Of a stretch of 64,000 nucleotides of DNA, positions 41,610 through 55,300 are shown piece by piece. The stretch is from positions 1,116,001 through 1,180,000 of the forward strand of contig NZ_VSDO01000002.1 in NCBI RefSeq assembly GCF_008084145.1, in the 5' to 3' direction. Origin of the DNA: Paenibacillus faecis (lineage in GTDB: Bacteria > Bacillota > Bacilli > Paenibacillales > Paenibacillaceae). The notes below the pieces were generated by a model, which ran no database searches, was not told the DNA's origin, and worked only from the letters and a program-made list of their open reading frames with translations. The translations under genes and the position numbers were made by a program. The first letter of the stretch is position 1. The number at the start of each line of letters is the position of its first letter.

Positions 41610-41960
41610 GTGATTCATGTGTATATGGACGACTTTCGACGTTGTCCCGAAGGATTTACTTTAGCCAGATCCGTGGATGAGTGTCTGGAGCTGCTGAGGA
41701 TGGCGGAAGTGGACATCTTGTCGCTGGACTACGATATGGGACCGGGAGAGAAAACCGGCTCCGAAGCGGCAGCCGCGATCGCGCGGGAGGGGCTGTACGC
41801 TCGTGAAATTTACCTCCATACCTCGAGCATGTACGGAAAGAAGAGTATGTACGAGATTTTGTACCAAAATAAGCCTGAGCATGTCATTTTGCATAACGGG
41901 CCGATTCCGTTCGAACGGTTGGAGGAAATTGAACGAACAGCGGGAGGTCGCAAGCGTTGA
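41610..41960 (+). CDS. cREC receiver-like protein (cyclic-phosphate processing receiver family)
   Basis: 116 residues matching the cREC/cyclic-phosphate-processing receiver domain group, receiver-like folds with a MDD at the start (MIHVYMDDFRRCPEGF), DILSLDYDMGPGEKTG in the phosphoacceptor region and EIYLHTSSMYG. Receiver-type Asp residues are kept, unlike in ordinary pseudo-receivers. Proteins of this group are predicted to act on nucleotides or RNA with cyclic phosphates; the activity is not proven. GTG 41610 is preceded by AAAGGAAG. It overlaps the RlmM-like gene by 4 bases. Confidence 0.7.
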   Translation: MIHVYMDDFRRCPEGFTLARSVDECLELLRMAEVDILSLDYDMGPGEKTGSEAAAAIAREGLYAREIYLHTSSMYGKKSMYEILYQNKPEHVILHNGPIPFERLEEIERTAGGRKR

Positions 41961-43048
41961 ACAACGAGATTGAGCGGGGAACCGCTACGGAATCGGAATC
42001 AGAATCGGAATCCGTAACAAGATGGGTATGTACGGCCAACCATGGTTTTGCTCCATACGCGCAGGAAGAGCTCCGCAGACAATTCGGGTCCGTCAAAAGC
42101 ACCATGCTGGTGCCAGGGGAGATTTTCGTCGCGTCGTTGCAAGCTGAACCGCAGCGGGTGGTAGAATCTTTGCGCGTGAAAGAGCCCGTGTTTCTGCGCC
42201 ATCTGTTCGAGGTGCAATGGGAATGGCCAAACAGGGAGGAGGCATCTTCCGCGGACATTGAGCATGCGCTGGCGGAACTTTCCGGCTTTTTGCGGGGGGA
42301 TGCCCGGCTGCATGGAACCAAGGTTGCGATCCAGACCCGTAAATCGGAGCAAGCGGTCTGGGCGAACAGCGCCGCCGAACTAAAGGAGGCGCTTCAGGCG
42401 CGATTGGACGGCATCGATGCGGAAATCGTCGTCAGGGAGGCGGATTGGGTTATTTCCGTATTTGCCTCCAAGGATCGGATGATGGCCGGCATCAGCGCGC
42501 CGGCGGACAATTTATCCGACTGGAATGGCGGTGCGATCCGGTTTCAGCGGGAGGAAGGGCAAATTTCCCGGGCGAAGTTCAAGCTGCTTGAGGCCGAGTC
42601 GATCTTCGGCATTGACTTTGCCTCTTTCCGGGAAGCGTTAGACATCGGAGCCGCACCGGGAGGATGGACTTCTTTCCTGCTGGAGCGGGGGATGAAGGTG
42701 ACCGCGGTCGATCCGGCCAAACTTCATCCCGATGTGCTCCGCAATCCGCTGCTTACGCATTTGCGCAAGAATGCGAACAGTGTTAAATTTCGCGAGAACC
42801 AATTCGATCTCCTCGTTTGTGACATGAGCTGGAATCCGAAGCTGACCGCGAAACTGGTTACGGAGCTGCTCTATGCCCTTGCACCGGGGGGAACAGCGAT
42901 CGTGACCGTAAAACTGCTGAGCAAGAAGCCGATGGCGCTTATTCACGAGATCATGGAAACCTTTGAAGCGGCCCGGCTTCAGATTCAGCGGGCCAAGCAG
43001 TTGTTCCACAACCGCGATGAGATCACCTTATATATGATTAAATATTAA
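41957..43048 (+). CDS. RlmM-like 23S rRNA methyltransferase
   Basis: 363 residues combining an N-terminal THUMP-like region (about 20-180) and a C-terminal SAM methyltransferase of the FtsJ/RlmM type: LDIGAAPGGWTSFLLERG, then VCDMSWNPK and VTVKLLSKK. RlmM 2'-O-methylates 23S rRNA C2498 in E. coli. The start includes a Glu-Ser repeat (ESESESES) from a GAATCG-type hexamer tract at about 41990-42018. It begins in the stop of the cREC gene. An unlikely alternative is a related 2'-O-methyltransferase with another target. Confidence 0.85.
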   Translation: MNNEIERGTATESESESESVTRWVCTANHGFAPYAQEELRRQFGSVKSTMLVPGEIFVASLQAEPQRVVESLRVKEPVFLRHLFEVQWEWPNREEASSADIEHALAELSGFLRGDARLHGTKVAIQTRKSEQAVWANSAAELKEALQARLDGIDAEIVVREADWVISVFASKDRMMAGISAPADNLSDWNGGAIRFQREEGQISRAKFKLLEAESIFGIDFASFREALDIGAAPGGWTSFLLERGMKVTAVDPAKLHPDVLRNPLLTHLRKNANSVKFRENQFDLLVCDMSWNPKLTAKLVTELLYALAPGGTAIVTVKLLSKKPMALIHEIMETFEAARLQIQRAKQLFHNRDEITLYMIKY

Positions 43049-43079: not shown

Positions 43080-43109
43080 TTTACAAGTCGGGACCTTTTG
43101 GTCTATACT
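43080..43109 (+). promoter_or_regulatory. Candidate sigma-A promoter for the Tad-like operon
   Basis: -35 TTTACA (43080-43085), 18-base spacer, -10 TATACT (43104-43109). It lies after the RlmM-like gene and 115 bases before the kinase start; the terminator-like hairpin at 43144 falls between. Confidence 0.6.
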
Positions 43110-43143
43110 TGTTCCAAAATTATACAAATTTGACGTTTGGGAA

Positions 43144-43198
43144 AGCATCCCTTGTCCGTTCGGTCTTCTAAAGATCGGTGCGGAACAGGGGATGCTTT
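43144..43198 (+). terminator. Terminator-like hairpin in the leader of the Tad-like operon
   Basis: AGCATCCC-TTGTCCG pairs with CGGAACA-GGGGATGC around a 20-base loop and runs into six T residues. It lies downstream of the candidate promoter and ends 25 bases before the TTG start of the kinase gene. It may end RlmM-gene transcripts or act as an attenuator; both are inference. Confidence 0.7.
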
Positions 43199-43223
43199 TT
43201 TGCGTCAGAAGGGAGGGAGAGAC

Positions 43224-44723
43224 TTGCCGTCCGTTACGGATTTTGAAATGGGCGATATTCTGGCGGGCAGATATCGTTTAGACCGATTGATCGGTAAGGG
43301 CGGGATGAGCCGGGTGTATCTGGCCTCTGATTTAAAGCTGCCGGGGAAGCGGTGGGCCGTAAAGGAATGCTTCGGCACGGAGGGAATTGGGGTCCGTCCG
43401 GAAGAGGAAGCCGAGCTTCTGATCGGATTGAGCCATCCGCGGCTTCCGCAAATTGTGGATTTTTTTCAGCTGCGGGATTCCGGTTACTCGTATCTGGTCA
43501 TGGATTACGTGGAGGGCGTTCATCTGGACCGGTTTGTCCTGAACCGGAAAGAAGCACCTCCCGCTCAGGAATTGGCGCGATTCGGCCTGCAAATTTGCGA
43601 AGGGTTGGAGTACCTGCATAGCCGCCGGCCGCCGATCGTGCATCGGGATTTAAAACCATCCAATCTGCTGGTGGACGGCAAAGGGGAAATTCGCTTCGTC
43701 GATTTTGGCATCGCGCGCAAGTATAAGCCGGAGCGGCCGGAGGATACGATTCAACTGGGAACCGTAGGCTTTGCGGCTCCTGAACAGTATGGAGGTAGGC
43801 AAAGTGACGGGCGGGCGGATTTGTACTCGCTTGGGGCCGTGCTGTTGTATTTGGGAACAGGCTGCCGATACAGTTCCTGGTCGGAAGCAGCCGACCGGGA
43901 GTTCCGAAGCAGAGGCTACGGCGAGTTGAGGGAGGCGGTCTTCAAGCTGCTCCGGGAAGATCCGGAGGAACGATTCGCCTCAGCCGAAGAAGCCGGAAGG
44001 GCCTTGTTGCCGATATGTCAACCGAGGCTTCGCATGACGGCGGGAGCTCCGTTGCGGGGGCGGCGTCCTCATGTTATCGCCGTAATGGCTTCCGTTCCGG
44101 GTTCGGGGGCTACCTATGTCTCCATCGCGTTAGCCCATATATTATCACGCAGTTCGCGAAACGTGGCGATTGTGGAAACGGATGAGAAGTCCAGCGCCAT
44201 GGGGGCTATCGCCCGATGGGCCGGGGAAGAGGCATGCGATCAGCATCCCGGGAGTACTGCCGGGTTTCGGCTTCACGGAGTGGACTACGTTCATATCTCG
44301 AGCAAAATGGAGCTGCTGGAGATCTTCACCGATCGCTACGAGTTTGTCGTATGCGATCTTGGATCCAGCAGGCGCAAGGAGATGATGGAAGAGTTCTCGC
44401 GGGCGGATTTGTCCATCCTGGTTACGCCGGGAGCGGCGTGGAGGCTCGATGATCTGGCCGCTTTCATGGAGCATCCCTTGGCCGCCAAGGGAAACATGGT
44501 TTGCTGCGTTCCGATGGCCTCTTCGGACGTCATTCGATGGTATCGAAAACAATGGGGAGGTATCAGGATCATTGGGCTTCCTGCGGACGGCTGCCCATTC
44601 TGCCCCGGCCCTCTGCTGGAACAAGCGCTAATGGAAGTGTGCGGGGGAATTCTGCCCGCCCCGGGTCAGGATAGGGGAAGAGGGATTCGCTGGTATCGAA
44701 AAAAACGGAAGGGACGTGATTGA
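43224..44723 (+). CDS. Ser/Thr protein kinase fused to a degenerate TadZ/MinD-like P-loop domain
   Basis: 499 residues. The N-terminal 270 are a Hanks-type kinase with Gly-rich loop GKGGMSRVY (24-32), Lys47 in AVKE, HRDLKPSN with Asp142 and DFG at 160-162, all needed for catalysis. The C-terminal 215 resemble TadZ/CpaE/MinD: IAVMASVPGSGATYVSIALAHIL in the P-loop position (the signature Lys is Ala), then IVETDE and FVVCDLGSS, and a basic tail (RWYRKKRKGRD). No membrane segment is present. TTG 43224 is chosen because GGGAGGGA precedes it by 6 bases. First of ten tightly spaced genes. Confidence 0.85.
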   Translation: MPSVTDFEMGDILAGRYRLDRLIGKGGMSRVYLASDLKLPGKRWAVKECFGTEGIGVRPEEEAELLIGLSHPRLPQIVDFFQLRDSGYSYLVMDYVEGVHLDRFVLNRKEAPPAQELARFGLQICEGLEYLHSRRPPIVHRDLKPSNLLVDGKGEIRFVDFGIARKYKPERPEDTIQLGTVGFAAPEQYGGRQSDGRADLYSLGAVLLYLGTGCRYSSWSEAADREFRSRGYGELREAVFKLLREDPEERFASAEEAGRALLPICQPRLRMTAGAPLRGRRPHVIAVMASVPGSGATYVSIALAHILSRSSRNVAIVETDEKSSAMGAIARWAGEEACDQHPGSTAGFRLHGVDYVHISSKMELLEIFTDRYEFVVCDLGSSRRKEMMEEFSRADLSILVTPGAAWRLDDLAAFMEHPLAAKGNMVCCVPMASSDVIRWYRKQWGGIRIIGLPADGCPFCPGPLLEQALMEVCGGILPAPGQDRGRGIRWYRKKRKGRD

Positions 44724-45629
44724 TTGCTTCTTTGGAGAAGAAAGACAAGGCAACTGATGCTGGCCGCCGTGATCGGCGCGGTGGTTACCGCCGCTGTTTT
44801 TACCGTCTGGATGAGTATGCGGACCCATCGGTACGCCGTGCAATCGGCCGAAACACGCCGGGCTTTGGAAGCCGAGATCGCGCGGTTGAAGGAAGCTTCG
44901 GAACAAAAGTATATTCGCGGGTGGGCGCCTTCCCGGCCGCTTCCAGCCGGACATCTGATCCGCGGGGAGGATGTGGCCCCTGTCGAGTTTCCGGCTCAAA
45001 CCGCCCCGGCGGACTTGCTGATCTCCAAGGACAAGGTTGTCGGCAAAACCGTCAAACTCAGGCTTTCCGCCAATACGCTGCTGACCGAAGCGCTGTTAAA
45101 TGAGGAGGAACCGACTTCCGCGGATTTACGTTACCGGGAAATGGGCTTTATTCAGCTTCCCGGGACGCTGGGCAATCAGGATACCGTAGATGTACGGATC
45201 CAATTCCCTACGGGTCAGGACTACATTTTGCTGGCGAAAAAAAGGGTGATCTCGCTTGCGGACGGCGTAGTTACAATGACGCTGAACGAAGCCGAGATTT
45301 TGTCCCTATCGAGCGCAATCGTCGATGCTTACCTGCATAAGGCATCGATCTACGCCTTGTTGTATGTGGAACCCGGACTGCAGGCCAAGGCCGTGCCGAC
45401 GTACCCGGCGAACGATGCCGTACTTCAGCTAATCCGGAAAGATCCCAACATCGTTCATCAAGCGGAACAAGCGCTGAACCGGTCCGCCCGAGCCGGCCTG
45501 GAAGCCGATTTGGCCGGAATGTCGGCACAGTCGGCGGCGGAATTTGCGGGTCTCCAGGCGTCCGGTCCCGGGGCGGGAGCGAAGCCAGCCGGAGACGATC
45601 AGCAATTTGAGATGCGGCCATTGGAATAA
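44724..45629 (+). CDS. CpaB/RcpC-like SAF-domain pilus assembly protein
   Basis: 301 residues. A membrane segment about 11-30 follows a basic start; a coiled stretch (ETRRALEAEIARLKEASEQ) leads into a SAF domain with RPLPAGHLIRGEDVAPVEFP, the hallmark of CpaB. The remainder is a C-terminal extracytoplasmic domain ending in an Ala/Gly-rich tail. CpaB proteins anchor Tad pilus assembly in the envelope. TTG 44724 starts directly after the kinase stop (TGA at 44721-44723). Prevailing context is Tad-like. Confidence 0.75.
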   Translation: MLLWRRKTRQLMLAAVIGAVVTAAVFTVWMSMRTHRYAVQSAETRRALEAEIARLKEASEQKYIRGWAPSRPLPAGHLIRGEDVAPVEFPAQTAPADLLISKDKVVGKTVKLRLSANTLLTEALLNEEEPTSADLRYREMGFIQLPGTLGNQDTVDVRIQFPTGQDYILLAKKRVISLADGVVTMTLNEAEILSLSSAIVDAYLHKASIYALLYVEPGLQAKAVPTYPANDAVLQLIRKDPNIVHQAEQALNRSARAGLEADLAGMSAQSAAEFAGLQASGPGAGAKPAGDDQQFEMRPLE

Positions 45630-45643
45630 GGGGGGAGCGGGCT

Positions 45644-46324
45644 GTGAAACGTATAATTTTTACCGGAAAAAGCGATAAAAGGGACCTGCTGCTCTTTATT
45701 TGCAAAGCGCTCGGCGAAGCGGGGAAGCGGGCGCTGTTGGTAGATTTGACCGACGGCGGGAAATACCGCTACATCCTGGGAGGCGGCGATTCGGTGCTGA
45801 GCGTGACCGAGTTTTGCGGTTTTGACATTTGTGACGGCATGTTGGGGGAACCCGCCGGCAGCGAGTACGATTTCTGCTTGTACGACATGGAAACGATGCA
45901 TTTCGGGACTAGAGAGCTTTGGAGTATGGCGAATGAAGCCCTTTGGGTCACTTCCTTCGACCGATACGAAGTCGAGCGCACGGTGGAATGGTTTAAACAA
46001 CTGTTTGTACGCTGGCCCGAATTGCAAATGCTCGAGCTTTGGCCGGTTTTTATTCGTACGGTCGACAGTTCTTTAAAACCGGAATACATATTAAGCGGCA
46101 TGGAGGGGTTGCCGGTTCGTTGGTCCAGGGATGTGCTTGAAATCCCGTGGTGTGAGAGCAATTTGGCGGTTCAACTGGAGAATGAGTATCGTCATATTTT
46201 GCGGATGGCGAGATTATCGAGATCCTATAAAAAGGCGTTGCGGACCTTGCTCGAGGAATTGGCGGGATGGACCGGTAAGGACGCGAGGAAGACGCTTCGG
46301 CAAGCGGAAAGGAGGAGGGCATGA
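45644..46324 (+). CDS. Degenerate P-loop NTPase-like protein 1 of the Tad-like operon
   Basis: 226 residues. IIFTGKSDKRDLLLF at the N-terminus and LLVDLTDG after it have the shape of a MinD/TadZ Walker A and following strand, but the P-loop lacks the Gly/Lys/Thr pattern, so ATP binding is doubtful. I do not recognise a closer family. It overlaps the next gene by 4 bases. GTG 45644 follows AGGGGGGAG. Such inactive paralogues could act as adaptors at a pilus-assembly site; that is inference from position. Confidence 0.6.
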   Translation: MKRIIFTGKSDKRDLLLFICKALGEAGKRALLVDLTDGGKYRYILGGGDSVLSVTEFCGFDICDGMLGEPAGSEYDFCLYDMETMHFGTRELWSMANEALWVTSFDRYEVERTVEWFKQLFVRWPELQMLELWPVFIRTVDSSLKPEYILSGMEGLPVRWSRDVLEIPWCESNLAVQLENEYRHILRMARLSRSYKKALRTLLEELAGWTGKDARKTLRQAERRRA

Positions 46325-47163
46325 GCCGGATTATATTTGAGGATACCGGTTGGGGAGGTTCACCGCAGCTAGTGGCGGCAAGTGCGCTATATATGGCGTT
46401 AAACTATCCGATGCGCATGTTGCTTTTAAATCAAGACCCCCGCGGTACAGGGCTGGAAGCCGGTTTTTCCGTTCATGGAAACCATTATGCTTCGCTTCCG
46501 CTGCTTGCGGAGAACGGGATGGACGCGATCCGAAGGCTTGCCGTGAATGAGAGGCTGACGAAACACAACTTTCCGGATTATACGACGCCTGTCGTCATCG
46601 GGAGACTGGATCTTTTGACCGGACCTTCTCATCTGGAAGGGGAGGCGCTTTTAGACTTGGAAGAAAAGGAGAGGATTTACGCGATCGCGGGTCAGGTCTA
46701 CGATATTTGCTTTTCCCGCACCCGCTTTTCCGAACAGACCGCCATCCCATCCGGGGATTGGTATAGGAAAGAGCCCGTGCCTTTAAGGGTGGCGGTTTTA
46801 CGCCAGGATAGATCGGAGCTGGAAGCTTTCTTTCGGGATCAGACATTGGATCGGAAAACCGGTCGCACTACCGGGGCTGAACTGATCGCCGTCTATCCCT
46901 ATGATTCCGGGTCGCAGTGGACGGTGCGCAATATTTGCCGGAGGTTTGCCTGCAAGCTTCCCGCTTTCGGTATATCCTACAGCACCCAATTTTCGGATGC
47001 CTGGAATAACCGGGAATTATTGAAATTTTTCAGGCTTAACTGCCCGGTGCGCCAGGATAAGAAAATAAGGGATGAAATGCTGCGCGGGCTCATTCCGTTT
47101 TGCCAAGCCATTTATACGCTGGCCGGACGCGCAGCACCTTTGTCCGGCGAAAAGGGGGCATAA
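46321..47163 (+). CDS. Degenerate P-loop NTPase-like protein 2 of the Tad-like operon
   Basis: 280 residues. The N-terminal layout SRIIFEDTGWGGSPQLVAASALYMALNYP-LLLNQD resembles a ParA/MinD strand-loop-helix-strand, again without a usable P-loop Lys. A later segment (LRVAVLRQDRSELEAFF, ELIAVYPYD) looks like the following strands. I recognise no named family. It starts in the stop of the preceding gene and ends 3 bases before the CpaF gene. Confidence 0.55.
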   Translation: MSRIIFEDTGWGGSPQLVAASALYMALNYPMRMLLLNQDPRGTGLEAGFSVHGNHYASLPLLAENGMDAIRRLAVNERLTKHNFPDYTTPVVIGRLDLLTGPSHLEGEALLDLEEKERIYAIAGQVYDICFSRTRFSEQTAIPSGDWYRKEPVPLRVAVLRQDRSELEAFFRDQTLDRKTGRTTGAELIAVYPYDSGSQWTVRNICRRFACKLPAFGISYSTQFSDAWNNRELLKFFRLNCPVRQDKKIRDEMLRGLIPFCQAIYTLAGRAAPLSGEKGA

Positions 47164-47166
47164 ACT

Positions 47167-49038
47167 GTGAACAGCGCAGCCGTAAACGTCTTAGGTTGCT
47201 TAGCACTGGTCCTGACTTGCTTGTCGGCTTTATGGTTTAGAGTCAGAATTTCCAAAGAAGATCCCGGGGAGCGTTCGATTGCGCAAGACCGCTACTCGAT
47301 GGACGAACTGATCGCTTTTATCAAGCATCAGATTCACGAGCTGAGCCGTAACCCCTCCAACGATTGGGGAATGAACGAAGAAGCGTGGAAACGTAAAGTC
47401 AAATCCCGGGCTGAGCTGCGTCAGGCGCTAAAAGGATGCGTGCACGGCGATCCGCAGGATAAACGCTATGTGAAAATGTTTATACGCGATTTGCTGCAAA
47501 AGGGCTACGGGATTAATGAAAGCAACATCGGACGCATCATTCCTTTCGATCAGCGGGAAAAGCTGACGGCCCAGGACCGGTTTGATATCGTGCTCTATTT
47601 GTACGAGAAGAAACACGGACCCGACGGACTCTCGACCATGATTGACGAGTACGGGCTCGACCGGGCGAAAGCATTCTCCGAGGAAGGGGAGGGCGAAGCG
47701 TTTGAGATTACGGCCGAAGATATCGACCGGATTTTTTACCGGGAATTCAGGCTGCTTTCGTTCCCGGAAAAGCTTGATTTGGTCGTGCAGCGGGTCTATC
47801 AAATGTACAAAGGCTTTTCCGTCATCGATGCCGTTCGCGAACAGCGTATCGACGGGGTCAGCGGGGGAGTCAGCGGCATCCCCGGGAACGGCGCCTTATG
47901 GGGAGACTCGGTTCCCGAGCGGGGTGGTGAATGGCCGGGAGTTTCGCTCGATGAAGATGGGAAAAAGGTGACGCGCGCCTGGGATAGCGTATGGATTTTT
48001 TACAAGGGGAAAAGTTTGCGCTTGTCCTTTCTAACCTTTGGAAGCGAGGCCGAACTGAAGCGGGTATGCCAAAACATCTACAAGTTTAATTTGCCCGGCC
48101 AACTGTCCGAGGCGAACGGCTATAAGGTCAACGAAATGAAGGACGGGTCGAGGGTCGTTGTAGTACGTCCTCCATTTGCCGAAACCTGGGCGTTCTTTGT
48201 CCGCAAATTCGATGTGAAGAGCGCCTCCCTTGAAAATCTGATCGAAGGGAATAACGCCGAACTGCCCGCCGAGCTGCTGAAATTTCTTATGAAGGGCAAC
48301 CGGATTACAGCGATAACGGGTTCCCAGGGGTCCGGCAAAACGACGCTCCTCATGGCGCTTGTCAAGCATATCGATCCCTCCTATACGCTGCGGGTTCAAG
48401 AGATGTCGTTCGAGCTTCATCTGCGACGGATGTATACCGCAAGAAATATTTTAACTTTTAAAGAGACCGAGTACGTCACCGGTCAAGCGGGGCTGGACGT
48501 ACAGAAGAAAACCGACGGAACCGTCAATATTCTGGGAGAAGTGGCGACTGACGAGGTCGCGGCCTGGATGATCCAGATGGGGCAGGTGGCCAGCCTGTTT
48601 ACTATTTTTACGCACCACGCCAAAACGTTTCGCGATCTGGTCGATTCGCTGCGCAATTCCCTCCTTAAGACGAGGGTCTTCCGCGATGAGCGAATCGCGG
48701 AGGAGCAGGTGGCCAAGGTGCTCGATTTTGACGTTCACCTGTGCAAGGATCGCCAAGGAAACAGGTACATCGAGCGGATTTCGGAATGCTGCAAGCAAGA
48801 TGAACGTCGCGGGCGAAGTAGGGAATATGCCGGAGACCACAGCCAGGGCGGGCTTTTAGGCCGCTCCAATGGATACAGGGAAAGGGTGATTGTGGAATAC
48901 CGGAATGGCGGATATTTTCCGGTCGAACCCCTATCCATGAAGTGCCAAGAGGAAATGCTTCGGGAGATGTCCCCAAGGGAAGCGGCGCGCTTCGGTGCGT
49001 TTCTGGATAAGCATTGGGGGGAGCGGCTTGGAGCTTAA
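47167..49038 (+). CDS. CpaF/TadA-like secretion ATPase
   Basis: Hexameric motor ATPase of Tad pili and related type II/IV secretion systems. 623 residues; a membrane segment about 5-22 at the N-terminus is unusual for this family. The motor domain lies about 270-600: Walker A GSQGSGKTT starting at about 385, Walker B-type TVNILGEVATDEVAAWM and the catalytic His box FTIFTHHAKTFRDLVDSL. GTG 47167 follows AAAAGGGGGC. It overlaps the next frame by 11 bases. CpaF-type ATPases lack the C-terminal Cys-rich zinc motif of PilB; none is seen here. Confidence 0.88.
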   Translation: MNSAAVNVLGCLALVLTCLSALWFRVRISKEDPGERSIAQDRYSMDELIAFIKHQIHELSRNPSNDWGMNEEAWKRKVKSRAELRQALKGCVHGDPQDKRYVKMFIRDLLQKGYGINESNIGRIIPFDQREKLTAQDRFDIVLYLYEKKHGPDGLSTMIDEYGLDRAKAFSEEGEGEAFEITAEDIDRIFYREFRLLSFPEKLDLVVQRVYQMYKGFSVIDAVREQRIDGVSGGVSGIPGNGALWGDSVPERGGEWPGVSLDEDGKKVTRAWDSVWIFYKGKSLRLSFLTFGSEAELKRVCQNIYKFNLPGQLSEANGYKVNEMKDGSRVVVVRPPFAETWAFFVRKFDVKSASLENLIEGNNAELPAELLKFLMKGNRITAITGSQGSGKTTLLMALVKHIDPSYTLRVQEMSFELHLRRMYTARNILTFKETEYVTGQAGLDVQKKTDGTVNILGEVATDEVAAWMIQMGQVASLFTIFTHHAKTFRDLVDSLRNSLLKTRVFRDERIAEEQVAKVLDFDVHLCKDRQGNRYIERISECCKQDERRGRSREYAGDHSQGGLLGRSNGYRERVIVEYRNGGYFPVEPLSMKCQEEMLREMSPREAARFGAFLDKHWGERLGA

Positions 49039-51109
49039 ATCTTTGCTTGTCGTCATTTTCGGGTTGGCCCTCTGCCTATTCGCTTTGCTGTATGGAACGG
49101 GTCGTCTGCTCGACGTGAAGGAGCGTAAACGGGGATACGTATGGAATCGTGAGCCAATTGCGTCGTCAAGGCTGCGGAGTGTTTTTTTCGCGATACTGCT
49201 GAGATCCTATGCGATATCGGTAAAAACCCCGTTGCTTCGCCACGATGTGCTGAAAGTGCGCCAACGCCTGGCATTGCTTCATCGATATGATGAATTTTCG
49301 CTAAGAAGGGCGACCATGAAGTTCGTCATTCTGCTGGCCTTGCTGTATGGGGCTGCCGTCGGGCTGCTGTTCGTCTGGAAATCCGGAATCGTGTTCGCGA
49401 TATGCTTGCTGCTTGCGATCGCCGTCATCCAGGGGAATCTACTGGATGCGTACGTGAATCGGATGGAACAAAAATTGCTGGAACAAATGCTGGACTGGTT
49501 TGCGGCGGTCAGACACGGCTTTCACAGGCACGGCATGGTCGGCGATGCGATTCTTGAGTCGGTAGACCAGGTTCCGGCGGAGATCGGCATGCATGCCGAA
49601 AGGTTATATGAGGCTTTGACCGACAGCAAGCCGGAAGAGGCGTTGGATAAGTTTAATGAAACTGCGCCGAACCGTTTTCTCAAAATGTTTGCGGGAATAT
49701 CCAGGCTTGTCATGGAATTCGGGGACCGAAAAAGAGAACGCGGATCGCTATATTTGCGGGGGATTTCCGGTCTTGCCGGGGAGATTCAGTTGGAGTTGTT
49801 ACGCCGCAAAAGACTGGAGTATTTGCTGCAAGGCTTAAACATCATCGCGCTGGCGCCTTTTTTCTTTACCAAGCCGATCGAACGGTGGGCCAGATTGAAT
49901 TTTCCCCTGATGAACCACTTTTATCTGAGCAAGACCGGACTGTTCGTAAAAATCGGTCTATTTATAGTCATACTCATCTGCTATGTGTTGCTGCAAAAAC
50001 TGAGAGGAGACCGGGTCATGCCTTCTTACCGGGTCTCGCAGGGCCGAAAGGTTCCATGGGAAGCTCGCTTGCTTCGTTGGGGCGTCGTCCGTAAGCTGAG
50101 GGGAATATTCACGCCGCCTTCGGCGACGGCGGCCTACTCCCGGCTTGAGCGGTTGTTGAAAGACGTCAATCACCATCTCGACGTGGGACAGTTCCAAGTC
50201 AGAAGGATGACCGTGTTTGCGGCTTGTATCATTTTGGCGATAGGAACGCTGATCTATATGCACGCGCAATCCCGGAACTGGATATTAAGCGAACCGCCGG
50301 CCGGTACCGTTTTTTTCGGAACAATGTCGGAAGAGGACAGCCGAACGGCCGCAAAGGCGGCTGAACAGGATCGGCGAATTATGATCAAGCTCGGTATGAA
50401 GTCGGGAATCGCTTCCGCGAAAATCGCGGAAGCCGTGGCAGCTGGGTGGTCGATCGGGGGCGGGAAATTGGACGAACAGCAGGCTGCCGGGATAACCCAG
50501 CGAATCCTCGACAAATTGGAACGCTGGAATCGGGAGTATGTGAAATGGTGGGAGCTAATTTTATCCCTTACCGCAGGCTGTGTCGGCTATTTTTCGCCCC
50601 TTTGGGTATTGAAGTTTCAGCGCGGGATGAGGCTGATGGATATGCGGCATGAAGTGTACCAGTTTCAAACGATGATCTCGATTTTACGTGAACTTGAACG
50701 CATCTCGGTGGAAGAAATTCTCGAGTGGCTTCATACCTATGCCGTGATATTCAAGGAGCCGTTGCAAAAATGTTTGCTTCATTACGGCCACGGAGGAGAG
50801 GACGCCTTGCGAGAAATGAAGGAACAAGCCGCGCTGAACGAGTTCCGGCAGCTTTGCGATAAGCTGCTTTTGGCCGCAGAGCGAATCACGATCCGCGACG
50901 CCTTCGACGAATTGGATGGTGAAATGTCCTACCAATTCGAACGGAGACGGCTCGATTATGAGAAATCGTTGGATCTCAAAGCGGGTTGGGGCCGATTGCT
51001 CGGCTTTTGCCCGATGTATTGCCTTATTTTTGCCTATTTGGTGATACCGCTAATATGGATGAGCTTTGAGCAGATGGATATTTACTTTAAGCAGATTCAA
51101 CATATTTAA
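49028..51109 (+). CDS. TadB-TadC-like membrane platform protein, apparently fused
   Basis: 693 residues; TadB and TadC are normally two proteins of about 300 residues each. Hydrophobic segments lie near 5-25, 95-135, 270-285, 307-327, 399-418, 514-534 and 660-683. Two soluble stretches (about 145-265 and 540-655) have the helical pattern of T2SF domains. TTG 49028 is chosen for GGGGGAG upstream; it lies inside the end of the ATPase gene. It should form the inner-membrane platform moved by CpaF. I see no frameshift, so one long protein is intended. Confidence 0.7.
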   Translation: MELKSLLVVIFGLALCLFALLYGTGRLLDVKERKRGYVWNREPIASSRLRSVFFAILLRSYAISVKTPLLRHDVLKVRQRLALLHRYDEFSLRRATMKFVILLALLYGAAVGLLFVWKSGIVFAICLLLAIAVIQGNLLDAYVNRMEQKLLEQMLDWFAAVRHGFHRHGMVGDAILESVDQVPAEIGMHAERLYEALTDSKPEEALDKFNETAPNRFLKMFAGISRLVMEFGDRKRERGSLYLRGISGLAGEIQLELLRRKRLEYLLQGLNIIALAPFFFTKPIERWARLNFPLMNHFYLSKTGLFVKIGLFIVILICYVLLQKLRGDRVMPSYRVSQGRKVPWEARLLRWGVVRKLRGIFTPPSATAAYSRLERLLKDVNHHLDVGQFQVRRMTVFAACIILAIGTLIYMHAQSRNWILSEPPAGTVFFGTMSEEDSRTAAKAAEQDRRIMIKLGMKSGIASAKIAEAVAAGWSIGGGKLDEQQAAGITQRILDKLERWNREYVKWWELILSLTAGCVGYFSPLWVLKFQRGMRLMDMRHEVYQFQTMISILRELERISVEEILEWLHTYAVIFKEPLQKCLLHYGHGGEDALREMKEQAALNEFRQLCDKLLLAAERITIRDAFDELDGEMSYQFERRRLDYEKSLDLKAGWGRLLGFCPMYCLIFAYLVIPLIWMSFEQMDIYFKQIQHI

Positions 51110-51128
51110 CAATGGGAGGCTTAAGCTT

Positions 51129-51620
51129 ATGAATAATGCATCGTCCGCGCTGAAGGTGGCGGCAGGAATATTTTTGACTATCGCACTCATTACGATCGTG
51201 GTTATTTTGTTCGTTTCGGCTCAGGAGGCAACGAAAACGGCCCAGAACAATTTTTCCGATATCCAGACCGAGCTTTCGCAAGCTTCTTTTACGGTTTACG
51301 ACGACACGACGGTGAGCGGATCGCAAGTGACGAACGCGCTGCGTAAATTCAAGGACCGGGGGGAGTTTGGGATACAAATTAAAACAGGGAAAAACTCGGG
51401 AGGGCAATGGTACGGGGACATCCTCCGCATCAGCGGACCGCTTACCAACGAAGAGTACGGCTCGGTAAGCGGCCGAAGTCTGGCCGACATCGGGAACACA
51501 TGGAATGAAAAACTCAATGAATACGTCAACCCCAGCGGGAAATTCAAGGCCAAGGTTATTAAGGATAATTCGAATGTTGTCCGCGGAATCATTTTCACAC
51601 AGACGACGGTAGCCCCGTAA
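51129..51620 (+). CDS. Membrane-anchored pilin-like protein 1
   Basis: 163 residues: an N-terminal hydrophobic helix (about 7-31) followed by a mostly polar exterior domain with SFTVYDDTTVSGSQV and a Ser/Gly-rich middle. I recall similar proteins, with the YDxTTVSGSxV segment, from Tad-like loci of other Firmicutes, but they lack a name. No class III prepilin cleavage site (Gly-x-x-x-x-Glu) is visible. GGGAGG precedes the ATG. Role as a pilin or minor subunit is inference from layout. Confidence 0.6.
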   Translation: MNNASSALKVAAGIFLTIALITIVVILFVSAQEATKTAQNNFSDIQTELSQASFTVYDDTTVSGSQVTNALRKFKDRGEFGIQIKTGKNSGGQWYGDILRISGPLTNEEYGSVSGRSLADIGNTWNEKLNEYVNPSGKFKAKVIKDNSNVVRGIIFTQTTVAP

Positions 51621-51624
51621 GCCT

Positions 51625-52059
51625 ATGCTGAATGCCGTGAAAAGTATGGTTTGGCTGGGGGTGGCCGCATCCGTATGCTTTACCGCACTCCTCCTTACGC
51701 TGGAACGTAGCCGGGATTTTGATTTGGCCCTACAGAGGATACTCCCTTACGTTCAGGGGCAGAAAGCAAGTGTCGCTTCAACACTTGGCAGGGAAGCCGA
51801 AGGGCTGGATCTGGCAGTGAAGTATAAAGGGAGCCACATTTTATACGGGTTAAGAGAGTGGGCCGGCGAAGGCTTGGAAATCACCATTGATTCCAAGCAG
51901 ATCCCATATGATGGAGAGCCGGTATACGAGCCGGGGGGGAGTGGGGATCGCGATTTGCGTTCGGCTTTATCATTACTCGACCTGCAAGGCGATTACAGGG
52001 CGGACTGTTATTACGATGCAGGGGAACATCTGTATAAGCTTGCTTTTAATAAAATTTAG
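51625..52059 (+). CDS. Membrane-anchored small protein 2 of the Tad-like operon
   Basis: 144 residues with a hydrophobic N-terminus (about 8-25) and an extracellular domain. I do not recognise a family. It follows the previous stop by 4 bases without a visible ribosome site, so translation probably depends on coupling. Its size, anchor and place suit a minor pilin-like subunit. Confidence 0.55.
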   Translation: MLNAVKSMVWLGVAASVCFTALLLTLERSRDFDLALQRILPYVQGQKASVASTLGREAEGLDLAVKYKGSHILYGLREWAGEGLEITIDSKQIPYDGEPVYEPGGSGDRDLRSALSLLDLQGDYRADCYYDAGEHLYKLAFNKI

Positions 52060-52071
52060 GGAGGCTCGCGG

Positions 52072-52626
52072 ATGAGTAACCCGCTGTCCAAAATTGCGGC
52101 TGCCCTGCTGTCCCTTCTCCTCGTATTTATGTATCCGGCTATGGAATTTGCGCAGCGGGAGGCGGATTTCGATATGCTTGCGGCGTATAATTCGCTTGTT
52201 CAGTTTACGGACGCGGTAAGGAATAAGGGATATTTCTCTCCGGAGATGTATCGCGAATTCAATCGGAACCTGGAGGTAGGCGGCAAAGTGTACGACATAG
52301 AAATCGAGCACCGGAGAAAAAAATACCACCCGGAATACGGCGATCCGGCCGATCCCGCAACCTTTCAAGATCGCTACTCCGTAGTCTACGATTCTTATTA
52401 TACCGACCGGATTCTAGAAGTTCTCTATCCGGCAAACCCGGACGGGACCGCTGAGGAGGAGCGGCTGTACAAACTCGCGGCGGGAGACTTCGTTCAAGTG
52501 AGCATAAAGCCGAAAACCCGTTCAACTTATGAAACGTTGGCCGAACTCGTCTACGGCTCGGGGAGCGCAAGTTTGGAAGGGAAGCGGATTTCCTATGGGG
52601 GAATGGTACTGAATGAAGATTACTGA
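52072..52626 (+). CDS. Membrane-anchored small protein 3 of the Tad-like operon
   Basis: 184 residues: N-terminal hydrophobic segment (about 7-23), then MEFAQREADFDMLAAYNSLVQFTDAVR, a helix, and a Tyr-rich exterior part (KYHPEYGDP, DSYYTDR). Family not recognised. The stretched N-terminal helix resembles the spine helix of pilins, but no prepilin motif is seen. Its last 14 bases overlap the final gene. GGGAGGC precedes the ATG. Confidence 0.55.
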   Translation: MSNPLSKIAAALLSLLLVFMYPAMEFAQREADFDMLAAYNSLVQFTDAVRNKGYFSPEMYREFNRNLEVGGKVYDIEIEHRRKKYHPEYGDPADPATFQDRYSVVYDSYYTDRILEVLYPANPDGTAEEERLYKLAAGDFVQVSIKPKTRSTYETLAELVYGSGSASLEGKRISYGGMVLNEDY

Positions 52627-53608
52627 TTGGGCCGTCATTTTTGTTCTGCTCGCTTGTCCGGCGTTATATATGCTGCAGTGGGATGCGGTGCAGCTCAGGG
52701 AAGCGAATCGTTTGCAGCTCAAATATACGGCTGCCTTAAGGACGGCCGCCCAAGATGCAGGAAGCAGGCTGGGTCAAAACGAGCTTCAGCGTTATGAGGC
52801 CGGTTACGGGTCTTCCAAATTTATGCGCGCCGATAAGGAGGCGGCTTTATCGGCCATGCTGGATACATTGCTGCTGAATTTGGGCGAGCATGAGGACGCT
52901 CTTTCGCGCGATCTTCTGATGACCTATATTCCGGCGGTTATCGTGATCGATTATGACGGTTACCATATATACGCAGTACAAGAGAAAGAGGGCGAGGACG
53001 GGAGCGTTTTGGCCCGGCATCATTGGCTGCCCAAGAAATCCTACGTCCATCGCGACGCGGAAGGAAATATGATCTATTTTACTTTGGATGATCAGATTAC
53101 GGTCATCGACTCGGCTTCCGGGGAAGTGCACCGCGGTTTAAGGGAGGAGCTGGGCAGCGCATTGTCCGTCAAACTTTTGCAGCAAAAAGAAGCCTTTGAG
53201 GATGTCCGCAGGTCGGCCATCGTGTCCAGTATCCAAGAAGACCTGTCCCGGGTTATCGACAATCATAATGCGTTTGTGAGGAAGCTTGGCTTCAATTATA
53301 TATTTACGCTGCCGACCATCTCGATGGAGGCGTGGAACAACTCGATCGATGACGTGGGGATCCTTGTCTTCCTGCAGGGCCTTCCTGTCGGCGGCAAGCA
53401 TTACAATAATTACGCGCTCGGCGGAGGGAGGGTTCTTAGGCAAAGGCCGGTTTATGGATGGAGCGATCCTAATACCGGAATTCGGTACGCAGGCCACAGG
53501 CACTGTTTCGGCGGACCCGGGACGGAAAGGGCGGAAATATTCGCAAGTCCAAAGGATGCCGCGGCAAAAGGTTATTTTGAAGCCCGATGTCCTTTGCAGG
53601 GACCCTGA
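52613..53608 (+). CDS. Large membrane-anchored protein 4, last gene of the Tad-like operon
   Basis: 331 residues with one hydrophobic segment (about 5-20) and a long exterior part. The first half holds a helical region (LRTAAQDAGSRLGQ); the middle, with IPAVIVIDYDGYHIYAV and a string of beta strands, may be a separate domain. The family is not recognised. It could cap or adapt the pilus tip, which is only inference. It ends 141 bases before the ABC-F gene. Confidence 0.55.
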   Translation: MKITDWAVIFVLLACPALYMLQWDAVQLREANRLQLKYTAALRTAAQDAGSRLGQNELQRYEAGYGSSKFMRADKEAALSAMLDTLLLNLGEHEDALSRDLLMTYIPAVIVIDYDGYHIYAVQEKEGEDGSVLARHHWLPKKSYVHRDAEGNMIYFTLDDQITVIDSASGEVHRGLREELGSALSVKLLQQKEAFEDVRRSAIVSSIQEDLSRVIDNHNAFVRKLGFNYIFTLPTISMEAWNNSIDDVGILVFLQGLPVGGKHYNNYALGGGRVLRQRPVYGWSDPNTGIRYAGHRHCFGGPGTERAEIFASPKDAAAKGYFEARCPLQGP

Positions 53609-53749: not shown

Positions 53750-55300
53750 ATGAGTTTATTGACCGTAGAGAATCTGTCCCACAATTTTGGGGACCGGACC
53801 CTTTTTAAAAATGTTTCCTTCCGGCTGCTTGCCGGGGAACATGTTGGACTGGTAGGAGCGAACGGGGTGGGGAAATCCACGCTGATGAATATTTTGACCG
53901 GACAACTTCTGAAGGACGAGGGGAAAGTGGAATGGACCCCGAAGGTCCGTTACGGATACCTGGATCAGCATTCCAAGCTGACGCCGGGGAAAACGGTGCG
54001 GGATGTGCTAAAGGACGCATTTCTTCCGCTGCTCGAGCTTGAGAAAGAGATGCTGGAAATCACCAATAAAATGGCGGACGCTACACCGGAAGAGCTGGAG
54101 GAATTGCTGAATCAGATGGGAGAAATCCAGGAGCAGCTGGAGATCGGGGATTTTTATCTCATCGATGTCAAGGTTGAAGAGATGGCCAACGGCCTCGGTC
54201 TTTCCGCCATCGGGCTCGATCGTGACGTTGCGGCATTGAGCGGGGGGCAGCGAACCAAAGTGCTGCTTGCGAAGCTTTTGCTCGAGAAACCGAACGTTCT
54301 GTTGTTGGACGAGCCGACGAACTACCTGGACGTGGAGCATATCCATTGGCTGACGAGTTATTTGCAAAACTATCCGTACGCGTTCATTTTGATTTCCCAC
54401 GACACGGAGTTTATGAATCAGGTGGTCAATGTCGTTTATCATCTCGAATTCGCGAAACTCACCCGATACAGTGCGAACTATGACAAATTCCTGGAGATGG
54501 CCGACATCAACAAAAGCCAGCATATCGATGCTTATGAGAAGCAACAGGAGTTCATCAAAAAGCAGGAGGACTTCATCCAGCGGAACAAGGCGCGTTATTC
54601 GACGTCCGGCCGGGCCAAGAGCCGGGAGAAACAACTGGACCGGTTGGAGCGGATCGATAAGCCGGAGGAAGCGGCCAAACCGATTTTCGGTTTTAAAGAA
54701 GCGCGGGCCAGCGGCAAGACGGTATTCGAGGGGATCGACTTTGAGATCGGCTATACGCACGCTTTGCTGCCCAAAATGTCCATGACGATCGAACGTGGGG
54801 AAAAGATCGCTATCGTCGGATGCAATGGGGTAGGTAAATCGACCCTGCTGAAAACGATTCTGGGCAAAATCCCTCCGGTAAGCGGAAAAACGTATCAGGG
54901 CGATTTCCTTTATCCGGCATATTTTGAGCAAGAGGTTCGTCCCGGGAACGGGACGCCGATCGACGACGTATGGAACGAATTCCCCCATTTGAATCAGCAT
55001 GAGGTCCGGGCTCATCTGGCGCGCTGCGGGCTAAAGAACGAACACATTACCCGTCAGTTAAAAGCGTTGAGCGGCGGAGAGCAGGCTAAGGTCCGCCTCT
55101 GCAAGCTGATGATGCGGGAGACGAACTGGATTTTGTTCGACGAACCTACCAATCACCTGGATGTTGTCGCCAAAGAAGAATTGAAACGGGCCTTAAAGGA
55201 GTTCAAAGGCACGGTTCTGCTCGTATCCCATGAACCTGACTTCTATGAGGATTGGGTTACCAAAATCTGGGACGTCGAGGCCTGGTCTACCCGGAAGTAA
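53750..55300 (+). CDS. ABC-F family ATPase (YfmM-like)
   Basis: 516-residue soluble twin-ATPase protein that acts on ribosomes rather than in transport. Two nucleotide-binding domains: first Walker A GANGVGKST, LSGGQRTKVLLAKLL, LLLDEPTNYLD; second GCNGVGKST, LSGGEQAKVRLCKLM, LFDEPTNHLD. The interdomain linker (about 245-310) is long and charged, as in ribosome-binding members. Closest to B. subtilis YfmM as far as memory allows. Antibiotic resistance function is not shown. AGAAGGAGC precedes the ATG. Confidence 0.93.
   Translation: MSLLTVENLSHNFGDRTLFKNVSFRLLAGEHVGLVGANGVGKSTLMNILTGQLLKDEGKVEWTPKVRYGYLDQHSKLTPGKTVRDVLKDAFLPLLELEKEMLEITNKMADATPEELEELLNQMGEIQEQLEIGDFYLIDVKVEEMANGLGLSAIGLDRDVAALSGGQRTKVLLAKLLLEKPNVLLLDEPTNYLDVEHIHWLTSYLQNYPYAFILISHDTEFMNQVVNVVYHLEFAKLTRYSANYDKFLEMADINKSQHIDAYEKQQEFIKKQEDFIQRNKARYSTSGRAKSREKQLDRLERIDKPEEAAKPIFGFKEARASGKTVFEGIDFEIGYTHALLPKMSMTIERGEKIAIVGCNGVGKSTLLKTILGKIPPVSGKTYQGDFLYPAYFEQEVRPGNGTPIDDVWNEFPHLNQHEVRAHLARCGLKNEHITRQLKALSGGEQAKVRLCKLMMRETNWILFDEPTNHLDVVAKEELKRALKEFKGTVLLVSHEPDFYEDWVTKIWDVEAWSTRK

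Follow-up and report, generated by a model that had tools for sequence, protein, structure and literature searches.

A kinase-headed operon of Paenibacillus faecis is an unusual relative of the Tad/Flp pilus machine and of machines carried by mobile elements

The stretch of Paenibacillus faecis DNA considered here (64,000 nucleotides of contig NZ_VSDO01000002.1, hereafter the window) contains an operon of ten genes, all on the + strand, headed by a protein kinase gene. It is related to the Tad/Flp (type IVc) pilus, a known surface machine from which it differs in unusual ways, and it shares an ancestor with machines carried by plasmids and other mobile elements. Its gene set and its leader are conserved, its motor and TadZ-like proteins are homologous to those of Tad loci, relatives of the whole set are mobile, and its motor co-occurs with a family of partner proteins, DUF5704.

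Gene content and conservation

The first gene, K (43224..44723), joins a Hanks-type Ser/Thr kinase, in one chain, with the MinD-like half of a TadZ-like protein. Its start, inferred from a Shine-Dalgarno-like sequence, AGGGAGGGAG, is most likely the TTG downstream of it at 43224. There follow B (44724..45629), a SAF-domain, CpaB-like membrane protein with an N-terminal hydrophobic segment; two open reading frames (ORFs) with TadZ-like domains (45644..46324 and 46321..47163); the CpaF/TadA-family motor F (47167..49038), with an N-terminal membrane anchor and an extension of about 200 residues; PL (48995..51109), a helical membrane protein of 704 residues with seven consensus transmembrane (TM) segments; and S1 to S4 (51129..51620, 51625..52059, 52072..52626 and 52613..53608). 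Neighbouring genes are spaced by -44 to +19 bases, which agrees with the tight, one-strand arrangement described in an earlier note made from the sequence of the window alone. That note let the region begin at 43080, where a promoter-like site ahead of the operon begins and not a gene.

A search yielded 137 relatives, and 80 loci (L001-L080) were kept; L081-L100, with short flanks, stand outside the printed maps and the type counts. The kinase type accounts for 75 of the 80. The genes stay together in these relatives: all nine others are detected in 63 of the 75, and 11 lack a detectable S2 only. Among the kinase-type loci, L058 stops before S4, and L059 has one ORF for the kinase and another for the MinD-like part. 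Of 36 genomes of the genus, 35 retain a motor of the operon's type, G029 being the miss; in G026 it is split across contigs, and in G030 the motor match contains stops.

Motor, TadZ-like proteins and kinase

The assignment of the motor to the CpaF/TadA family is confirmed by profile comparison with canonical CpaF (hhalign probability 99.6, E 1.7e-24, 303 columns) and by invariant positions shared with three canonical CpaF sequences. The Pfam T2SSE family is passed narrowly (27.1 against a cut-off of 24.9 bits), and the NCBIfam matches of the TadA type (motor) and of the CpaB type (B; TIGR03177, 30.5 bits against a cut-off of 71) lie under their cut-offs. The ComG pseudopilus was considered and rejected: in a profile check the motor is closer to TadA (2.1e-11) than to ComGA (4.1e-4). 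Walker A is present in 42 of 42 motors of the operon's family and a strict GEV[AR] motif in 35 of 42. The N-terminal membrane anchor is found in all 42, searched upstream in frame, as against none of 15 canonical motors, which were read only from the chosen start.

The kinase domain (Pkinase, 3.9e-36) and the SAF domain (3.8e-8), both named in the earlier note, exceed the Pfam cut-offs. K48, E63, R142 D143, N148 and D161-G163 are invariant in 22 of 22 aligned kinase fusions; we take them to be the catalytic Lys, Glu, HRD-type Arg-Asp, Asn and DFG, respectively. By these motifs the kinase part would be an active Hanks-type kinase. In the MinD-like half, the P-loop Lys is missing in 22 of 22 fusions, as read by eye.

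Three TadZ-like domains relate the operon to the TadZ/CpaE proteins of the Tad/Flp pilus. The canonical CpaE C-half is matched by the C-half of the kinase fusion (E 5.4e-9), by the first TadZ-like ORF (probability 97, E 5.2e-11), which has no Pfam match, and by the second (probability 90, E 1.5e-6). A counterpart of K is TadZp, the product of the first gene of plasmid loci, which has an N-part that looks alpha/beta by eye and a MinD-like C-half. Profiles of 22 kinase fusions and nine TadZp sequences match with probability 100 and E 1.5e-48, over the C-halves only; when the halves are compared separately, the C-half gives E 2.9e-58 and the N-half no match. Because the match is confined to the C-halves, chromosomal K is a TadZ-like protein in which a kinase replaced the other N-half, or the reverse; either way, these alignments show a domain swap between the two kinds of N-part. 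A C-terminal TM segment was present in both TadZp proteins tested for one. Searches by sequence for relatives of solved structure returned only weak ParA/FleN-type and designed-protein matches for the plasmid TadZ-like profile, and none for a single plasmid TadZ-like protein.

A kinase ORF also lies beside CpaE in 3 of 15 fetched canonical Tad loci (L135, L143 and L144, from other Bacillales families), and kinases may therefore have joined Tad-type loci more than once.

Mobile relatives

Nine-gene relatives of the operon are borne by plasmids and by integrative and conjugative elements (ICEs), for example pTHECO01, pBpOF4-01, pPPM1a and the Butyrivibrio plasmid pCY186. S1 relatives occur in 23 plasmid records, and the motor, at 80% coverage, also in 23; the family has its own gene core, which spans Bacillales to Butyrivibrio. 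Unlike the operon, the mobile relatives have no kinase and no convincing leader of the operon's type. A TadZ-like protein, ParA/ParB or another gene stands ahead, and SLH/stalk and DUF5704 genes are usually found behind. Plasmid homologues of S1 are partly annotated 'ABC transporter permease', apparently a misnomer.

A tree was built from 52 motor rows picked by hand, 24 of them of the kinase type and one of these being the window. The main chromosomal clade (20 rows) has an SH-aLRT support of 100, and plasmid copies sit at the base (supports 91-93). Two changes are needed to explain the kinase label, and the small kinase clades L068+L075 and L125+L127 share an open fork with clades of ICE and plasmid copies. 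Such a topology is compatible with mobile copies having given rise to the chromosomal type. L125 and L127 are kinase-type operons in genomes of another family, at another site and without the rlmM-like neighbour described below.

An ICE-like element beside an rlmCD-like gene (G000:C5; L101, L103 and L104) carries the nine-gene machine together with an AAA ATPase and subtilase-like pair, ParA/ParB-like genes, a 2093-residue protein, a group II intron-type reverse transcriptase (by eye), and relaxase, VirD4 and VirB4-type genes.

DUF5704 and surface partners

DUF5704 is present in 40 of 40 genus genomes. Among 198 genomes of the order, 86 have the motor and 83 have DUF5704; both occur in 81, the motor alone in five, DUF5704 alone in two and neither in 110. 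At 26 of 30 non-kinase loci a DUF5704 gene is close by, in most cases preceded by an SLH/stalk gene. More telling are 18 genomes of the genus that have no strong motor other than one of the chromosomal type (as judged from motor identity, with lists and positions typed by hand, and including G030 with its stops); there DUF5704 lies on another contig (8) or at least 408 kb away (10). In three kinase-type loci (L068, L073 and L074), SLH and DUF5704 genes are still found behind S4. The operon machine seems to cooperate with surface proteins whose genes lie at other sites of the genome.

In the chromosomal DUF5704 regions the preceding gene has an SLH or stalk match in 7 of 8; in the P. faecis genome itself the 399-residue ORF that precedes DUF5704 gives no match. 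Here (L146, 7175-11679), and at L147 and L153, DUF5704 and its partner sit between rsmB-like and rlmN-like genes, near a kinase gene (by eye); in the other five regions read, the pair sits elsewhere. Near the pair at L146 the kinase was confirmed as Pkinase plus PASTA. A PP2C-like gene is also close to the pair at L146, L147 and L153, with names given partly by eye. A hydrophobic segment stands at the N-terminus of the DUF5704, SLH and stalk proteins alike, and a search by sequence found no solved-structure relatives of DUF5704. Among openly licensed PubMed Central papers (CC0, CC BY, CC BY-SA), no mention of DUF5704 was found, and no description of the kinase operon or of its plasmid and ICE relatives was recognised.

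The leader ahead of the kinase gene

The gene on the left, outside the machine, is rlmM-like and predicted to encode a methyltransferase (41957..43048, + strand, named by eye). It is a fixed neighbour, present at 75 of 75 kinase-type loci among L001-L080 and adjoining the kinase in the maps. Between the two genes lie, on the + strand, a promoter-like site, TTTACA-18-TATACT (43080..43109, 10/12 matches), and a terminator-like hairpin with a T-run (43137..43204; dG -37.8, z -7.7) whose 5' box is GGGAAAGCATCCC. The number of promoter-like sites in the region is not above that in shuffles; TTTACA/TATAAT-like boxes are seen by eye in related leaders. All 75 kinase-type loci among L001-L080 have the box GGAAAG[C/T]AT, 71 of them by pattern search and four as read by eye.

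An alignment (A11) joined the window with 56 of the 67 distinct pattern-matched leaders, and the window is thus in the training set of the covariance model (R1). All 57 leaders fold with z < -3 (median -7.2), and the box pairs with the 3' arm in every one. The closing stem is paired in 99.8% of cells, compared with 98.4% in shuffles, and shows C-G to U-A changes in eight sequences; for each measure, 0 of 500 shuffles were as high. Over the whole P. faecis genome the model recovers two sites, namely the copy in the window (E 0.001) and a second, weak one (E 0.36). The exact leader pattern, which fails on the window's own genome, occurs in 19 of 39 genus genomes, one copy each, and its reversed control in 0 of 39. 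No Rfam family matched the leader at gathering score. These data point to a candidate attenuator specific to the kinase operon. The hairpin may instead be no more than the terminator of the rlmM-like gene, which is less probable given the promoter-like site that separates the two and the conservation of the leader sequence.

The leader was also considered as a shared regulon element and rejected, there being no second strong copy in the genome and nothing convincing for the model at DUF5704, canonical Tad or ICE/plasmid loci or at L125 and L127. A single weak match at Butyrivibrio L108 (19.9 bits) was taken as chance.

Comparison with known systems

With Tad/Flp machines the operon shares a CpaF-family motor, TadZ/CpaE-like proteins, a possibly CpaB-like SAF protein and a motor gene adjoining that of a large membrane protein. 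It differs in its membrane-anchored motor, in having three TadZ-like domains, one of them fused to a kinase, in a single unrecognisable membrane protein instead of TadB and TadC, in the absence of Flp pilin, TadE/TadG and TadV from the ten genes and, as a family, in its SLH/stalk and DUF5704 partners. The earlier note had seen no prepilin peptidase or Flp pilin. None is encoded among the ten genes, but both occur at a canonical Tad locus elsewhere in the P. faecis genome (L102; G000:C1:1279000-1298500), which contains, by names given largely by eye, CpaE, CpaF, TadB, TadC, Flp pilin, TadE/TadG-like genes, TadV and an FHA-like protein. Peptidase_A24, absent from the ten operon proteins, is found in 196 of the 198 genomes of the order and was therefore rejected as a discriminator.

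PMC6668835 derives TadB and TadC from an internal duplication followed by fission and mentions MSH loci without a peptidase of their own; for archaeal-type type IV filament machines it describes TadZ-like proteins and proposes an ancestral single-chain platform, a likeness by description. PMC9765702 reports a type IV pilus in clinical P. thiaminolyticus, its surface-filament locus lying on a predicted mobile element; it is of the PilB/PilT/PilC type and of a family other than the operon's. PMC5072692 reports two Flp/Tad-like loci with no pilin found in Paenibacillus sp. NAIST15-1, where deletion of four putative pili genes left motility unaffected, and PMC11217815 places Tad loci next to T7SSg in Paenibacillus.

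S1, the candidate pilin-like subunit, is by identity the most conserved protein of the operon in kinase-type loci (60-95% across 75). Its AlphaFold2 model (pLDDT 80.5) shows a helix at residues 2-55 followed by a beta-rich head. S2 is a fast-evolving paralogue of S1 (hhalign probability 96.8, E 2.5e-10, 126 columns). S3 and S4 each have a single N-terminal TM segment and no family match in Pfam or in the hhalign comparison. PL is a candidate single-chain platform on grounds of position, length and helical topology; its model (pLDDT 84.7) is nearly all helix. It has no Pfam, profile or fold match (Foldseek empty at E 0.001) and no solved-structure relative by sequence, and Pfam T2SSF is absent among the matches of 33 PL members.

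Nature of the machine

We favour, at slightly better than even odds, a kinase-controlled surface-filament machine of mobile-element descent. A more far-reaching reading, at somewhat less than even odds, is that of an unrecognised lineage of the type IV filament superfamily, mobile in Firmicutes and domesticated in Paenibacillaceae. The machine would have spread on Firmicute plasmids and ICEs before its domestication; the input half of TadZ would have been exchanged for a Ser/Thr kinase, the genes of the surface partners (SLH/stalk and DUF5704) would have moved far away, and the operon would have acquired a leader-RNA attenuator of its own. The product would be a surface filament of non-canonical pilins, gated by phosphorylation and attenuation and maybe needing no prepilin peptidase. 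The earlier note had proposed a reduced, kinase-controlled pilus or secretion machine; this interpretation is upheld in part.

Several results weigh against a domesticated, gated filament. On the scale of the order, 112 of 198 genomes are without a motor of the operon's type, which makes it dispensable, and most of the operon is lost in G029. There is no known kinase substrate, filament or phenotype. The class III prepilin pattern is found in 2/40 S1, 1/36 S2, 0/42 S3 and 0/42 S4 sequences, none convincing, the genome's canonical Flp pilin having been read by eye and not scored as a control. S1-S4 match canonical TadE/TadG-like proteins with hhalign probabilities of at most 2.1 (TadF was not compared separately). 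The platform called 'TadB-TadC-like' in the earlier note finds no support in sequence or fold searches: the PL halves give probabilities of 0.7-17 (E 0.0015-0.08) against TadB/TadC and E 0.12 against each other, when TadB against TadC, as positive control, gives probability 97 and E 5.6e-11. For both S1 and PL the Foldseek search was empty at E 0.001, and profile comparison gave no match between the N-halves of plasmid TadZp and CpaE. The Fisher p of 1.3e-46 for motor and DUF5704 takes no account of phylogeny, and a large share of their association comes down to simple linkage in mobile copies. Both-sided change is seen at only one stem pair of the leader, a value equalled by 442 of 500 shuffles. 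Finally, the open fork between kinase and mobile clades and a root on a long branch make the direction of descent unsure.

The proximity of DUF5704 to the non-kinase loci, its retention, unlinked, in kinase-type genomes and the lack of a prepilin motif would also suit a secretion or surface-display machine, in which S1 and S2 act only as a piston and DUF5704 and SLH/stalk proteins are exported or positioned in the wall. We consider this the closest rival, though an unlikely one; the N-termini of these proteins appear to resemble ordinary Sec signals, so that no special exporter would be needed. A structure by which mobile elements establish cell contact or mating pairs, kept by the chromosome for its own use or as a relic, is less probable still. 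The plasmid-borne relatives speak for it, as do the relaxase, VirD4 and VirB4-type genes of the ICE-like element; in six plasmids tested, AAA_10 (VirB4-type) is clear in one, barely over the cut-off in a second and below it in four. The ICE-like element, however, carries type IV secretion system (T4SS) genes of its own, and the ten chromosomal proteins include no relaxase, no coupling protein (VirD4) and no VirB4, all of which are present around the ICE-borne paralogue. Retention of the motor across the genus argues against a relic. An ordinary Tad/Flp locus that has shed pilin, peptidase and secretin is very improbable and was rejected: motor and TadZ homology would fit, but the platform, pilin and minor-pilin comparisons detect no TadB/TadC, Flp pilin or TadE/TadG, the genome possesses a canonical Tad locus besides, and the family has its own gene core over its whole range.

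Several proteins of the operon match no family despite their wide retention in the genus. If the domesticated-filament reading is right, a mobile-element machine would have been domesticated through replacement of the TadZ input half by a kinase, DUF5704 would gain its first functional context, and the operon would offer a Gram-positive system in which to test a TadZ-kinase, a CpaF with a membrane anchor and pilins that may not depend on a peptidase.

Flanking sites

The right flank, outside the machine, holds an ABC-F gene (53750..55300, + strand, named by eye), which adjoins many, not all, kinase-type loci. At L142 (G055:C11) a canonical Tad locus adjoins the rlmM-like gene, at the site that the kinase-type operon occupies in other genomes.

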